32,118 nucleotides of DNA, taken from Candidatus Gottesmanbacteria bacterium RIFCSPHIGHO2_02_FULL_40_13 (GTDB lineage Bacteria; Patescibacteriota; Microgenomatia; 2-02-FULL-39-11). The notes under the pieces are model-generated. The model did no database searches. It saw only the letters and a program-made list of their open reading frames with translations, and was not told where the DNA came from. Position numbers and translations under genes: made by a program. The stretch is taken from assembly GCA_001779235.1 (NCBI GenBank), contig MFJN01000047.1:14494-46611 (forward strand). The letters run 5' to 3'. Within the stretch, counting starts at the first letter, position 1; every line of letters begins with the position of its first letter. This document shows positions 6,590 through 31,332 of this stretch, piece after piece.

Positions 6590-6715
6590 GGGTATACCCT
6601 TCTTACTCGATTTTGAATCTTTTTCATCAGAAAAATGTTGTTAAATCAGTCTAGAAGGAGCCTGTCTGTACAGGCAGGTTATGCCCGTAGCAGTGTCAAG
6701 TGCGAAGGATTATAT
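6590..6715 (-). repeat. Repeat family B, variant copy (TATACCC-ended element)
   Basis: The reverse complement contains TTCGCACTTGACACTGCTACGGG...CTCCTTCTAGAC and the terminal AAGGGTATACC, matching 31194-31332 except for the central hairpin. Confidence 0.6.
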
Positions 6716-6836
6716 CAGCAGACAGGATCGAAGATGACAGATTATTAACCCGCCTTCGCGGAATCCCGATTAAATCGGGAGTAGAGACATTTTTCCGCTT
6801 CGGCGAGGTTTACGCTCTGACGAAGCGCATTATTCA

Positions 6837-6868
6837 GATTCCCCGACCGTAAGGTCGAGGGAGCTTCA
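6837..6868 (+). repeat. Partial (3'-end) copy of repeat family A
   Basis: ATTCCCCGACCGTAAGGTCGAGGGAGCTTCA resembles the family A end GCCCCGACCGTAAGGTCGGGGAGCGCTTCA. Confidence 0.6.
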
Positions 6869-6896
6869 AGACAGCATTTTGATCTGTTATAAGCGA

Positions 6897-6932
6897 CCTT
6901 CTAAATCTCAGCTGCAGCGAAAATTTAGAAGG
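6897..6932. repeat. Palindromic hairpin with apical CTGCAG, copy 2
   Basis: CCTTCTAAATCTCAGCTGCAGCGAAAATTTAGAAGG; 10-bp perfect arms. Confidence 0.65.
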
Positions 6933-6940
6933 AAGATGAG

Positions 6941-7027
6941 CTATACCCTCCACGTTTGAGAATAGTACGGGATATCAAACGTTTCAGCCGCGTTTGACTG
7001 TGGCGGATAAAACTCCTTCTAGACCGT
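6941..7027 (+). repeat. Repeat family B, second copy
   Basis: TACGGGATATCAAACGTTTCAGCCGCGTTTGACTGTGGCGGATAAAACTCCTTCTAGACC aligns with 31216-31280. Confidence 0.65.
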
Positions 7028-7237: not shown

Positions 7238-7372
7238 TTACCCCAGCACCAGAATGCCCCGGACGTAAGTCCGCGGGATGAATGGTTTTCAAGCGGGCAT
7301 TCGGTGCGGGGTTTCGCGCTCCGAATGACCGAAAGGACTGATGCCCCGACCGTAAGGTCGGGGAGCGCTTCA
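7238..7372 (+). repeat. Repeat family A copy 1 (structured ~134-bp element)
   Basis: TTACCCCAGCACCAGAATGCCCCGGACGTAAGTCCGCGGG...CCCCGACCGTAAGGTCGGGGAGCGCTTCA; identical to copy 5. Confidence 0.95.
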
Positions 7373-7539
7373 CTCACATACCCCTTGTCTGCCGGGCGTA
7401 TTTTCATTATGCTGAAATCAGGGCGCACTCCAAAATAATATATTCCTTTTGGATGCGCCACAAAGGGCCGCAATCCTAAATAATCGTAAACGTTATTTAT
7501 GAGCGAGCCCTTAGCTTAATTTTTTAAGTTTTTATTGCT

Positions 7540-23231: not shown

Positions 23232-23645
23232 ATGGAACAGACTGTTGTATTAGTAAAACCGGACGCAGTGAAAAAGCAGGTAATCGGCAAAATCATTACC
23301 TATCTTGAAAACGCGCATTTTCACCTGGTGGCCGGAAAATTTACCCGTCTTACGGATGAAATTATCGACCGCTGGTATAAACATCACCAGGATAAACCTT
23401 TCTTTCCTGAACTGAAAAAATTCATGATGGAGACGCCTGTCATGGCGATGATTTGGGAAGGGGAGGGTGTTGTAGCTAAAGTGCGGGAAATCTGCGGTCC
23501 GACCGATTCGTTAAAGGCGCCAAAAGGCACGATCCGCGGAGACCTCGGGACTGATATCCAGTACAATGTCGTTCACGCCTCGGAAGATGAGGAAAATGCC
23601 AAGCGGGAAATAGGTCTTCTTTTTGAACTTACACCCCAGGGGTGA
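23232..23645 (+). CDS. ndk: Nucleoside diphosphate kinase
   Basis: EQTVVLVKPDAVKKQVIGKII, HQDKPFFPELKKFM, GTIRGDLG, NVVHASEDEENAKREI with active-site His. Confidence 0.93.
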   Translation: MEQTVVLVKPDAVKKQVIGKIITYLENAHFHLVAGKFTRLTDEIIDRWYKHHQDKPFFPELKKFMMETPVMAMIWEGEGVVAKVREICGPTDSLKAPKGTIRGDLGTDIQYNVVHASEDEENAKREIGLLFELTPQG

Positions 23646-23667: not shown

Positions 23668-24153
23668 TTAACGTCTTTTGTAAACTCTGGGAATCCGGGG
23701 CGCTATGCCCGCCACTATTTCGTAATTTATGGTAGAACACACTTTGGCGATATCGTCAGCCAGAATAGTTTCTTTTCCCTGACGGCCGATGAGGACTGCT
23801 TCATCTCCAATATTTGTATTTTTAATCCTTGAGATATCGATTGCTTTCTGATCCATGGAAATCCGTCCGATAATGGGAGCTTTTTTTCCATTGATTAAAA
23901 CATAAAACTTGTTAGACAGCGCCCTCGGATAGCCGTCGCCGTAACCAATCGGCAATAAACCCATCAGCATTTTTCTTTTTGCATGATATGTCCTTCTGTA
24001 GCCGACAGTATCGCCTTTTTGCAGAGTTTTTATCTGAACGACGATGGATTTTAGAGTCATGACAGGCGTCTCCATCATGAGTTTTTTCAGGGAGTTGAAA
24101 TTATAAGCGAAGTTAGCAAGATTTATTTCAGCAAAAGAGAGGCGGTCGGGCAT
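23668..24153 (-). pseudogene. alr: Internally deleted alanine racemase (N-terminal ~25 aa joined to the C-terminal domain)
   Basis: MPDRLSFAEINLANFAYNFNSLKKL (Alr N-terminus) runs straight into METPVMTLKSIVVQIKTLQKGDTVGYRRTY...IGYGDGYPRALSN...GRISMDQ...TINYEIVAGIAPRIPRVY (Alr C-terminal domain). The PLP-lysine barrel is absent. Confidence 0.8.
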
Positions 24154-24392: not shown

Positions 24393-24434
24393 CCCCGACG
24401 TTACGTCGGGGTCCCTGCCTGCCGGCAGGCAGGG
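24393..24434. repeat. Two adjacent perfect palindromes
   Basis: CCCCGACG-TTA-CGTCGGGG (24393-24411) and CCCTGCCTGCCGGCAGGCAGGG (24413-24434). Confidence 0.85.
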
Positions 24435-24450
24435 AGGGGTATATACTGAG

Positions 24451-24584
24451 TGAAGCGCTCCCCGACCTTACGGTCGGGGCATCAGTCCTTTCGGTCATTC
24501 GGAGCGCGAAACCCCGCACCGAATGCCCGCTTGAAAACCATTCATCCCGCGGACTTACGTCCGGGGCATTCTGGTGCCGGGGTA
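24451..24584 (-). repeat. Repeat family A copy 2
   Basis: Reverse complement of the 7238 element with one substitution (CCCCAGCACC to CCCCGGCACC). Confidence 0.95.
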
Positions 24585-24631
24585 GCTCAGTTGCAAATCT
24601 GAGTCACGTAGGTATATACTTACTACTTTGT

Positions 24632-25441
24632 ATGGCACTTGAAACTCGGGAAAGTCTGCAAGAAAGGGAATATAAAGATAAAGGACCTTATCATTGGAGT
24701 ATATCCATTGCAGGCGGAGTGGTGTTTCAGATGGGTATAGAGAACCGAAAAACAGACAGGCTGGTGCGATGGTTTCATCCCGGACTTCTGAGATACAGAG
24801 CTGCAATAAGTATTATACAACCGCATATGGATCAATTACTGACTAAAAATATGAAACCACGTATATTGGATTTAGGGGGAGGTGACGGATTTATGGCAGG
24901 AGGGATGATTGCACCCAGGTGGGGGAATAATGCTGATTTATTTAATTGTGATATTTCGTATAATGCCCTCTATTTATCACGCCTGAAGAATGATAAAGTT
25001 TCAAATACACAAGCCCGTGACCGATTACCGTTTAAGTCTGAAAGCTTTGACGTGATTACTGCATTGGAAGTTTTAGAACACGTAGAGGATGGTTTGTTGT
25101 TTTTAAAAGAAGCAAAAAGAGTATTATGCGAAAAGGGGATTATGGTTATTTCCACGCCATCCAAAAAATATCCCATAAACCTTAAACATAGAGAACATTA
25201 CGACAAATCTTCATTGACATCAGTTCTTGAGAGTGCAGGATTTGATGATTATTCCGTGATAGGGTATCGGTTTTCTCCTTATAAACTGATCAGATATGCC
25301 GCATATGGAATCGATGCTGTATTTCGCTTGATCAAAAACAGTCCGGTTGGAATTTATGAGTATAAAAAAGAAGAGACAGGCAGAGTTCAAGATTTACCGG
25401 ATGGGTATATAGTTTTATGCCGAAAAGAGTGCCGGAAATAA
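24632..25441 (+). CDS. Class I SAM-dependent methyltransferase
   Basis: RILDLGGGDGFMAG, DVITALEVLEHVEDGLLFLKEAKRVLCEKGIMVISTPSK. The upstream ORF extension (24383-24631) is repeat DNA, so ATG 24632 is preferred. Confidence 0.85.
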   Translation: MALETRESLQEREYKDKGPYHWSISIAGGVVFQMGIENRKTDRLVRWFHPGLLRYRAAISIIQPHMDQLLTKNMKPRILDLGGGDGFMAGGMIAPRWGNNADLFNCDISYNALYLSRLKNDKVSNTQARDRLPFKSESFDVITALEVLEHVEDGLLFLKEAKRVLCEKGIMVISTPSKKYPINLKHREHYDKSSLTSVLESAGFDDYSVIGYRFSPYKLIRYAAYGIDAVFRLIKNSPVGIYEYKKEETGRVQDLPDGYIVLCRKECRK

Positions 25442-25465: not shown

Positions 25466-26317
25466 ATGGCTATAATTTTTGCCTTAATTGCTTTGATCGG
25501 TTGGGGGGTGGGGGATATTTGTGTCACCATTGCCTCAAGAAAGTTAGGTTTTCTGGTTACCTATTTTTGGGCTTTTGTATTTGGATTAATTGTGATCGTC
25601 TTCATGATGCCGTTTATGGGCGGAATTTCCGATGGGAGGATGTTTTTTTTCGCAATTCTTCTAAACCTTATTCATACCGCGGGCAATCTTTCTTTCTTTA
25701 GGGGTTTAGAGGTCGGCAATGCCTCAATTGTCGGGACAATTACCGGTACCTTCTCAATTGTAAGCGTAATATTATCTTTGATTTTTTTCAAAGAAAGTGT
25801 CAGCTGGCTTCAGGCGATCGGAATTACTTTCGCCGGACTGGGTGTGATACTTGTTTCGCTGAAACTCGGTGGGACCGGAAAAATTTCACGGTTTTTTGCG
25901 GATAGGGGAGTTTCTTATGCGATCGTAACTCTTTTTTGCTGGGGATTTTACTTTGCTTTTGTGCGGATCCCTGCAGAGAAGATAGGCTGGTTTTGGGCCG
26001 GGGTTCCTCTTTTTTTAAATGCTTTTCTTCTTCTGGCCAGCAGAGATCTTCGAAAAAATATGGGGAAAATCTTTGCGGATAAAAAAGGATTAATTTCCAC
26101 CATAACCTTCATGCTGCTCGGGCTTATCATGGCTGATTTTGCTTACAATATAGGTATTCTGCAAGGATTTACCTCAATTGTAGCTCCAATCGCGGGATCT
26201 TCTGCGGTATTATTTGTCATTTTATCCCGTTTTGTATTCGGTGACAGGCTAAATATTCAGCAAAAATGGGGAATCGCGGTCACGCTTCTTGGGATACTTA
26301 TCGTCAGCTTTTCCTAA
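25466..26317 (+). CDS. EamA/DMT-family membrane transporter
   Basis: 283 aa, about ten hydrophobic helices in two halves; GNLSFFRGLEVGNASIVGTITGTFSIVSVILSLIFFKE and IAPIAGSSAVLFVILSRFVFGDRLN. Confidence 0.85.
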   Translation: MAIIFALIALIGWGVGDICVTIASRKLGFLVTYFWAFVFGLIVIVFMMPFMGGISDGRMFFFAILLNLIHTAGNLSFFRGLEVGNASIVGTITGTFSIVSVILSLIFFKESVSWLQAIGITFAGLGVILVSLKLGGTGKISRFFADRGVSYAIVTLFCWGFYFAFVRIPAEKIGWFWAGVPLFLNAFLLLASRDLRKNMGKIFADKKGLISTITFMLLGLIMADFAYNIGILQGFTSIVAPIAGSSAVLFVILSRFVFGDRLNIQQKWGIAVTLLGILIVSFS

Positions 26318-26320
26318 AAT

Positions 26321-26455
26321 TTACCCCAGCACCAGAATGCCCCGGACGTAAGTCCGCGGGATGAATGGTTTTCAAGCGGGCATTCGGTGCGGGGTTTCGC
26401 GCTCCGAATGACCGAAAGGACTAATGCCCCGACCGTAAGGTCGGGGAGCGCTTCA
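26321..26455 (+). repeat. Repeat family A copy 3
   Basis: Matches copy 1 with one substitution (CTGATG to CTAATG); lies between convergent EamA and maf and overlaps the maf stop codon. Confidence 0.95.
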
Positions 26456-27250
26456 CAAAGTAAAATATTTATCCAGTATCGGAATCACTTTTTCCATCGG
26501 CAGACCGATGACGTTGGAAATAGATCCTTCCACCTTGGTGACAAAATCCTGCGGAGAGGCCACTAAAGCATAACCGCCGGTAAATCTGGTATAGTCTGTG
26601 TATTTCAGATACCTTTTGATATCGTTATCCGTAAGCTTTCTGAAGGTGACGAGGCTGACGTCAAAGCCCTGCCAGCTAGTTTTTTTTCCAGCACTTGCAG
26701 ATGCAATTTTCTTGCTTGCAATATATCTGCATTGACTAGCTGCGTTGTCATCCTGAACTCGTTTCAGGATCTCATTATTATTCTCCCGGGTAAAAGTTGG
26801 TTCAAACTTTCCGTATGCAATCTTCGAAAATTGCATGCTGCTTCGCCCTGTACTTATATCTATCTTCAGCAGAAAATACCCGCTCACCACTTCGTGAGTT
26901 TTTCCGGAAAGAAGTTGCAGCATTTGCACAGCTTCTTTTTCCGAGGCGGGCTTACCGAATAGATTATTCTCCAGAATTACCTCTGTATCGGCAGAGAGTA
27001 TAAGATAGGTTATAGGTTTTAGGTTATAGGTTGCAGGAGACTTAAGTGACTTAGGTAACTTATTAGAAACAGCTAGTAGAACAGCTGCGCTTTCCCCTTT
27101 GAGTCTTGCCCGAAGAAGTATGGTATTTACCGGAGTATCTGCGATAATTTTTTCCTCGTCCAAATTAGTATGAACTGTTTCATAATCGAGCTTGAGTTTA
27201 TCAAGAAGGTATTTTCGCCCCAATGAGGCCGAAGCCAGAATTAGTTTCAT
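26453..27250 (-). CDS. maf: Maf-like nucleotide pyrophosphatase with two internal expansions
   Basis: MKLILASASLGRKYLLDKL, LSADTEVILENNLFGKPASEKEAVQMLQLLSGKTHEVVSGYF, GGYALVASPQDFVTKVEGSISNVIGLPMEKV. The track start at 27259 is TTG; ATG 27250 fits the family better. Confidence 0.85.
   Translation of the reverse strand: MKLILASASLGRKYLLDKLKLDYETVHTNLDEEKIIADTPVNTILLRARLKGESAAVLLAVSNKLPKSLKSPATYNLKPITYLILSADTEVILENNLFGKPASEKEAVQMLQLLSGKTHEVVSGYFLLKIDISTGRSSMQFSKIAYGKFEPTFTRENNNEILKRVQDDNAASQCRYIASKKIASASAGKKTSWQGFDVSLVTFRKLTDNDIKRYLKYTDYTRFTGGYALVASPQDFVTKVEGSISNVIGLPMEKVIPILDKYFTL
26750..26770. repeat. Palindromic repeat inside maf (GTCATCCTGAA...TTCAGGATC type)
   Basis: ATCCTGAA-CTCGT-TTCAGGAT; translated in frame as EILKRVQDD. 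Confidence 0.8.
27006..27033 (+). repeat. Heptamer tandem repeat, (TAGGTTN)x4, inside maf
   Basis: TAGGTTA TAGGTTT TAGGTTA TAGGTTG. Confidence 0.85.
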
Positions 27251-27273: not shown

Positions 27274-27407
27274 TTGAAGCTCCCCGACCTTACGGTCGGG
27301 GCATCAGTCCTTTCGGTCATTCGGAGCGCGAAACCCCGCACCAAATGCCCGCTTGAAAACCATTCATCCCGCGGACTTACGTCCGGGGCATTCTGGTGCT
27401 GGGGTAA
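27274..27407 (-). repeat. Repeat family A copy 4
   Basis: Reverse complement of the element with CATTCGG to CATTTGG and loss of GC in GAGCGCTTCA. Confidence 0.95.
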
Positions 27408-30922: not shown

Positions 30923-31057
30923 TTACCCCAGCACCAGAATGCCCCGGACGTAAGTCCGCGGGATGAATGGTTTTCAAGCGGGCATTCGGTGCGGGGTTTC
31001 GCGCTCCGAATGACCGAAAGGACTGATGCCCCGACCGTAAGGTCGGGGAGCGCTTCA
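30923..31057 (+). repeat. Repeat family A copy 5
   Basis: Same sequence as copy 1. Confidence 0.95.
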
Positions 31058-31084
31058 CCTGCAGTATCAGTTTAGATTGTTATT

Positions 31085-31193: not shown

Positions 31194-31332
31194 TATACCC
31201 TTCGCACTTGATATTGCTACGGGACGTCAAACGTCCCAGCCACGTTTGACTGTGGCGGGTATAACTCCTTCTAGACCGAGTTAGCAACATTTTTCTTACG
31301 AAAAAGTTGCAAACCGGAGTAAGATGGGTATA
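31194..31332 (+). repeat. Repeat family B, full copy with inverted TATACCC/GGGTATA ends
   Basis: TATACCC...GGGACGTCAAACGTCCC...CTCCTTCTAGACC...GCAACATTTTTCTTACGAAAAAGTTGC...GGGTATA. Confidence 0.65.

Follow-up and report, generated by a model that had tools for sequence, protein, structure and literature searches.

Elements of the IS200/IS605 family share a hallmark: they insert 3' of a short fixed sequence and do not duplicate it. In IS608, the cleavage sites are not read by the transposase; each is instead paired with a four-base guide just 5' of a hairpin foot, CL (TTAC) with GL (AAAG) and CR (TCAA) with GR (GAAT), with A+16:T-3 and A+17:T-4 among the contacts, and the target is TTAC (PMC5934647). 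The palindrome-associated transposable elements (PATEs) of Haloquadratum walsbyi are transposase-free and multicopy, and single-palindrome 'terminal-only' versions of them exist (PMC3119063). In REP sequences, the tetranucleotide is GT[AG]G (PMC6006769).

The present analysis concerns family A, a 132-nt dispersed repeat in a Patescibacteria genome. The comparisons reported here indicate that family A is most likely mobile DNA rather than a new RNA and, specifically, that it is very probably a non-autonomous (transposase-free) derivative of the IS200/IS605 family, of the PATE kind. Within the literature that was searched, elements of this kind have not been described from Patescibacteria.

The window, that is, the whole 32,118-nt stretch of DNA that was analysed, holds five copies of family A, and the assembly to which it belongs (G000; 1.29 Mb in 70 contigs, 85.6% complete) holds 14 full copies in total and one 24-nt fragment at a contig edge. 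The borders were set by aligning the 14 near-identical copies, whose flanks are unrelated. The left border is preceded by TTA(C) in 13 of the 14 and by CTAC in the remaining one, TTA (or CTA) being followed by CCCC, and the right border reads TTCAC in 12. Terminal inverted repeats are absent (the element starts CCCAGC.. and finishes ..GCTTCAC), an 8-bp hairpin lies near either end, and 132 nt is too short to encode a transposase. Six of the 14 copies fall on the window's own 46.6 kb contig, C47 (binomial P ~5e-6, for a copy count possibly biased because contigs break at repeats), a clustering that hints at hopping over short distances or at a preferred region. The copies in the window, with the cleavage tetranucleotides of the first, are these:

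7242 to 7373, forward strand: family A copy 1, 132 nt, with borders taken from the 14 copies and their unrelated flanks.
7238 to 7241, forward strand: TTAC target and left cleavage tetranucleotide (CL), which stays in the left flank; supported by the left borders and by TTAC in the empty sites of the 24450 copy.
7370 to 7373, forward strand: TCAC, the right cleavage tetranucleotide (CR) and final 4 nt of the element, from the borders and the guide test.
24450 to 24581, reverse strand: copy 2, within another dispersed palindromic repeat, with flanking CTAC at 24582-24585; uninterrupted versions occur in G000, G006 and G014.
26325 to 26456, forward strand: copy 3, with TTAC at 26321-26324, directly 3' of the stop codon of an ORF ending at 26317.
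27274 to 27403, reverse strand: copy 4, with an altered right end (GGAGCTTCAA) that abuts a AACCTGGAAGGTT palindrome and an uncertain exact right border.
30927 to 31058, forward strand: copy 5, with TTAC at 30923-30926.

The AACCTGGAAGGTT palindrome at copy 4 resembles one that flanks a RAYT gene elsewhere in the genome. The window also contains a second dispersed repeat family (6647-7026 and 31194-31278, copies 82% identical) with inverted ends (CTAGAAGGAG...CCCGTAGCAGTGTCAAGTGCGAAGG and ...CTCCTTCTAGACCG), and a related motif stands beside another family A copy on contig C58, near L019. Separately, a 33-nt stretch at 23412-23444, inside an ORF (23232-23645) that we take by eye to be nucleoside diphosphate kinase-like, recurs inverted at 24058-24090 in an ORF (23668-24153) that presumably encodes an alanine racemase without most of its first domain; this inverted recurrence is perhaps a rearrangement scar.

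Family A inserts precisely 3' of TTAC, with no target duplication. Empty sites were sought by searching the joined flanks of its copies against the genomes of the family. The copy at 24450-24581 splits another dispersed palindrome, whose intact form is found at three other loci of the assembly as well as in G006 and G014. The intact sites read ...AACTGAGTTAC|TCAGTATATACCCC... (GAGTTAC|TCAG), against GAGCTAC-[element]-TCAG at the filled site, and this comparison shows the target neither duplicated nor lost. Two further copies have uninterrupted relatives (C20 for L017; G012 and G001 for L010) and are equally clean, the tetranucleotide there not being TTAC. The palindrome that hosts copy 2 (window positions about 24410-24640) is itself a dispersed repeat (GTATATACCCACGTAACTCAG..CTGAGTTACTCAGTATATACCCC) present in other genera of the family.

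The helices proposed for copy 1 by the first-pass annotation are present where it placed them, both inner hairpins do carry GTAA loops, and the proposed extent (7241-7368) ends 5 nt short of the element border at 7373. Compared with dinucleotide shuffles, the fold has a z score of -5.1 as DNA and -4.6 as RNA, with 0 of 200 shuffles as good. Its parts in copy 1 are as follows:

7241 to 7311, forward strand: outer arm 1 (17 bp, two bulged A), which encloses the left guide and hairpin; 97.4% of cells paired across 12 homologues, compensatory changes at two pairs.
7253 to 7256, forward strand: left guide AATG, 4 nt 5' of the left hairpin foot, which predicts TTAC by the IS608 pairing rule (PMC5934647).
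7257 to 7277, forward strand: left subterminal hairpin CCCCGGAC-GTAA-GTCCG-c-GGG, 8 bp with a bulged C, folded like the hairpin at the right end of the G012 IS200 element.
7316 to 7368, forward strand: arm 2, GCGCTCC/GGAGCGC, which encloses the right guide and hairpin; seen in the fold, with G-C to A-T compensation in L025, and kept in L141.
7340 to 7343, forward strand: right guide GATG, which predicts TCAC, from the guide test.
7344 to 7363, forward strand: right subterminal hairpin CCCCGACC-GTAA-GGTCGGGG, which matches IS200 ends of G012 and G272 almost exactly.

Folding energy was rejected as a test of strand, both strands folding alike (as DNA, -39.0 kcal/mol for the opposite strand vs -38.3 for this one).

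The pairing rule links this fold to the borders. In generalised form, a guide g1g2g3g4 predicts an end comp(g2) comp(g1) A comp(g4). For family A, AATG yields TTAC on the left and GATG yields TCAC on the right; both predictions match the borders, a match with a chance of about 1 in 4096 (three constrained positions, two ends). The rule was further applied to 30 right ends, comprising family A, two other IS200-like ends of the assembly (one of them in the window), relatives from the class and real IS200 elements. The predicted tetranucleotide lies 4 to 8 nt past the hairpin at 26 of the 30, compared with a mean of 8.5 and a maximum of 17 when guides were shuffled among the elements (20,000 shuffles); with near-duplicates removed, the rule holds at 20 of 24, against a shuffled mean of 5.8 and maximum of 15, the P value being a guide only, as hairpins and guide frame were defined manually and some of the elements are relatives of one another. 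The rule is broken at the other four right ends, and by eye also at that of L141. Among the relatives, TTCAT ends go with GATA or GAAA, TTAT ends with AAAA and TCAA ends with GATT. An autonomous IS200 in G056, whose ten copies have borders fixed independently by unrelated flanks, behaves as predicted at both ends (left TGAA with guide CATT, right TCAC with guide GATG), its right pair being the same as in family A.

Other IS200-like ends occur in the assembly. At 6840-6873 in the window lies another IS200-like right end, with guide GATT, hairpin CCCCGACC-GTAA-GGTCGaGGG and end TCAA, in line with the rule. On contig C64 of the same assembly, L023 (1487-1615) is a different miniature element of IS200 type, which reads TTAT, guide AAAA and hairpin CCACGACC-GTAA on one side and guide AAAA, hairpin CCCCGAGC-GTAA and TTAT on the other.

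Similar hairpins surround real transposase genes. The IS200 transposase NF033573 occurs in 55 of the 384 genomes of the class, and several of its genes stand between GTAA-loop hairpins on the coding strand. In G012, which belongs to the same family as the window's genome, a TnpA gene lies between CCCCGACC-GTAA-GGTCGcatGGG and CCCCGACC-GTAA-GGTCGtGGG, nearly what family A has as its right hairpin; the left end of this G012 element is CTAA (guide AGAT) and the right end TTAT (guide AAAA). Taken together, the precise insertion 3' of TTAC, the empty sites, the guide rule and the hairpins around real IS200 genes identify the two folds of family A as the subterminal single-stranded-DNA hairpins of an IS200/IS605-type element. 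The long outer arms count against this identification, being absent from the textbook IS608 end.

The same data bear on the first-pass view that family A is a functional structured non-coding RNA, running in the CCCCAGCACC-to-GCGCTTCA direction and spread by copying or read-through. Its strong fold, its GNRA loops and the compensatory changes between genera would all suit such an RNA, as would the sequence conservation of arm 1, which exceeds the needs of a transposase hairpin. The helices are indeed supported by compensation across genera: each of the four has several pairs with both partners exchanged in L025 (71% identical), and among 12 homologues outer arm 1 shows C-G/T-A/A-T and A-T/T-A exchanges. 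A transposon end, however, yields the same covariation, and GTAA is not a constant loop, the close relatives having TTCA, TTTA, ATTT, TTTC and others in place of a GNRA sequence, so that the helix is under long-term selection and the GNRA loop is not. The differences between copies had likewise been thought to keep the fold and to point to one strand, which a count over all 14 copies contradicts. None of the 20 substitutions is compensated; nine are unpaired and 11 fall in pairs, half of the element's positions being paired, and the 11 divide into four that give G.T on this strand, three that give A.C on this strand (G.T on the other) and four other mismatches. The pattern is about that of random hits on a half-paired element, with no strand bias, and thus respects neither fold nor strand. 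In addition, the copy at 27274-27403 has lost two bases at its right end (GGAGCGCTTCAC to GGAGCTTCAA), a change missed at first that damages arm 2.

Further against an RNA, the copies occur in both orientations and in varied gene contexts, a search of family A against Rfam gave no match at gathering score or E <= 1, and the pairing of guides with cleavage sites accounts for details of the sequence. Strand polarity is no argument for RNA, because the single-stranded-DNA mechanism of IS200/IS605 elements is likewise strand-specific. The first-pass annotation was right to see more than a plain repeat in family A, which is structured and strand-polar; the interpretation as an RNA is highly improbable in view of the insertion sites, the guide rule, the IS200 hairpins and the Rfam result.

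Mobile DNA of this kind needs an enzyme. In the 85.6% complete assembly, there were 0 matches to NF033573, the IS200-type TnpA, and none to PF07282, the C-terminal domain of TnpB; a tblastn search with the G012 TnpA against loci with family-A-like elements returned no autonomous copy with the same arms. Metagenome bins often lose IS genes. The trans-acting enzyme of family A is therefore deduced rather than observed. Could the element be the relic of a TnpB-bearing IS605 element, its right end an omega-RNA scaffold? IS605 right ends do overlap the omega-RNA, and a TAM would be supplied by the target motif that adjoins the element, but with PF07282 absent from the assembly as recovered, and with the autonomous relatives found being tnpA-only IS200 types that carry these very hairpins, such an origin is hardly credible.

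The assembly does encode six Y1_Tnp proteins of 221-252 aa that are RAYT-like, and a REP sequence is likewise a hairpin with a 5' tetranucleotide, so family A could be a REP/BIME-like sequence spread by one of these RAYT (TnpA_REP) proteins. This is very unlikely: each of the six genes (L001-L006) has its own private flanking palindromes, none like family A, the guides are AATG and GATG instead of GT[AG]G (PMC6006769), and the element has two hairpins in direct orientation with defined left and right ends. Six RAYT-like genes are a large set for a 1.3 Mb genome; their palindromes are CCTTTAAGGGTC, GGGACGGTCC, AACCTTCCAGGTT, CACCCCAGGGGTG, CAACCCGACGGGTTG and TTCCGCTCCGGGAGCGGAA.

For a transposase-free IS200/IS605 derivative, the data are compatible with a model in which the top strand would become single-stranded, for example as lagging-strand template, allowing the two subterminal hairpins to fold. 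A Y1 HUH transposase (TnpA) supplied in trans would bind the hairpins, and the cleavage tetranucleotides would pair with the guides 5' of the hairpins, TTAC with AATG at the left end and TCAC with GATG at the right end, which would position the cuts. The element would presumably leave as a single-stranded circle and re-insert 3' of another TTAC, with the target not duplicated. From sequence, we infer that family A may be active at present.

Family A is not confined to this genome. Homologues are present in other genera of the class, in records of Daviesbacteria, Woesebacteria and WWE3, and also in further classes of the phylum, where L141 is full-length, 75% identical and has both GTAA loops. 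At the levels of family and order, the searches covered the same 15 genomes. G203 holds many homologues, some of which keep outer arm 1 with the guide and hairpin replaced; L100 in that genome is a single-hairpin 'ends-only' form. In L094-L101 (G203), the outer arm CCCCAGCACC/GGTGCGGGG is kept and the guide and hairpin 1 are swapped for a short CCCGC..GCGGG hairpin, and L099 represents an occasional form with two arms in tandem. L144 resembles an IS200 that has lost the greater part of tnpA. A search of IMG/VR viral contigs with two exact patterns gave no match.

The oddity of family A is its long conserved outer arm, within which the guide is buried according to fold prediction. Among the miniature elements, the long arm pairs the whole guide in five of seven predicted folds, whereas the IS200 elements of the group have a short arm around the left hairpin and a mostly free guide (predictions pair 0-2 of its 4 bases). 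The sequence of outer arm 1 is also better conserved than that of the hairpin it encloses. The long arm may be a lock on activity, an aid to extrusion or something unrelated to transposition. One elaboration, which seems unlikely, is that the arm, conserved in sequence across several Patescibacteria classes as the inner hairpin drifts, forms a built-in switch: the resting single-stranded fold would hide the guide tetranucleotide and the left end, so that cutting and targeting could proceed only once TnpA or replication opens the arm. If true, these PATEs would constitute a separately evolving, self-regulated lineage rather than mere deletion relics.

With the new results, what had seemed a novel RNA becomes mobile DNA of a well-understood kind; they also point to a phylum-wide family of miniature single-strand transposons hosted by the small genomes of Patescibacteria. 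A caution follows for annotation: an RNA gene cannot be told from an IS200/IS605 end by strand polarity, GNRA-like loops and covariation alone. Related elements with the targets TTAC, TTAT, CTAA, CTAT and TGAA and matching guides are, furthermore, natural cases of retargeting, which has been engineered in IS608.

Among known systems, REP sequences with TnpA_REP (RAYT) share with family A a hairpin and 5' tetranucleotide handled by a Y1 HUH protein, but theirs is GT[AG]G, whereas the two ends of family A differ from each other and its insertion is of the IS type. The IS200 types of Microgenomatia (G012 L071, G272 L074, G056, G297 L075, G209 L082 and others) share the 8-bp hairpin with a 4-nt loop, often GTAA, the guide positions and a short outer arm round the left hairpin; unlike family A, they carry tnpA, use CTAA, TGAA, CTAT and other targets, and have an arm that stays short and a guide that is mostly unpaired. 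With IS608 of Helicobacter pylori, family A has in common a TTAC target that is retained at the left side, subterminal hairpins on the top strand and guides 5' of the hairpin feet that pair with CL and CR through the same three Watson-Crick positions (PMC5934647); it differs in having neither tnpA nor tnpB, in its right end (TCAC/GATG vs TCAA/GAAT) and in the base downstream, mostly T (9 of the 13 copies with an intact right end) vs C in IS608. The PATEs of Haloquadratum walsbyi and its relatives match family A in lacking a transposase and terminal inverted repeats, in leaving the target unduplicated, in being multicopy and in having palindromes near the termini that are related to IS605-type ends, and single-palindrome versions exist both there (PMC3119063) and, as L100, in G203. 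In contrast to the PATEs, family A resides in Patescibacteria instead of haloarchaea, its hairpins are nested in longer paired arms, and its target and guide pair has been identified directly.
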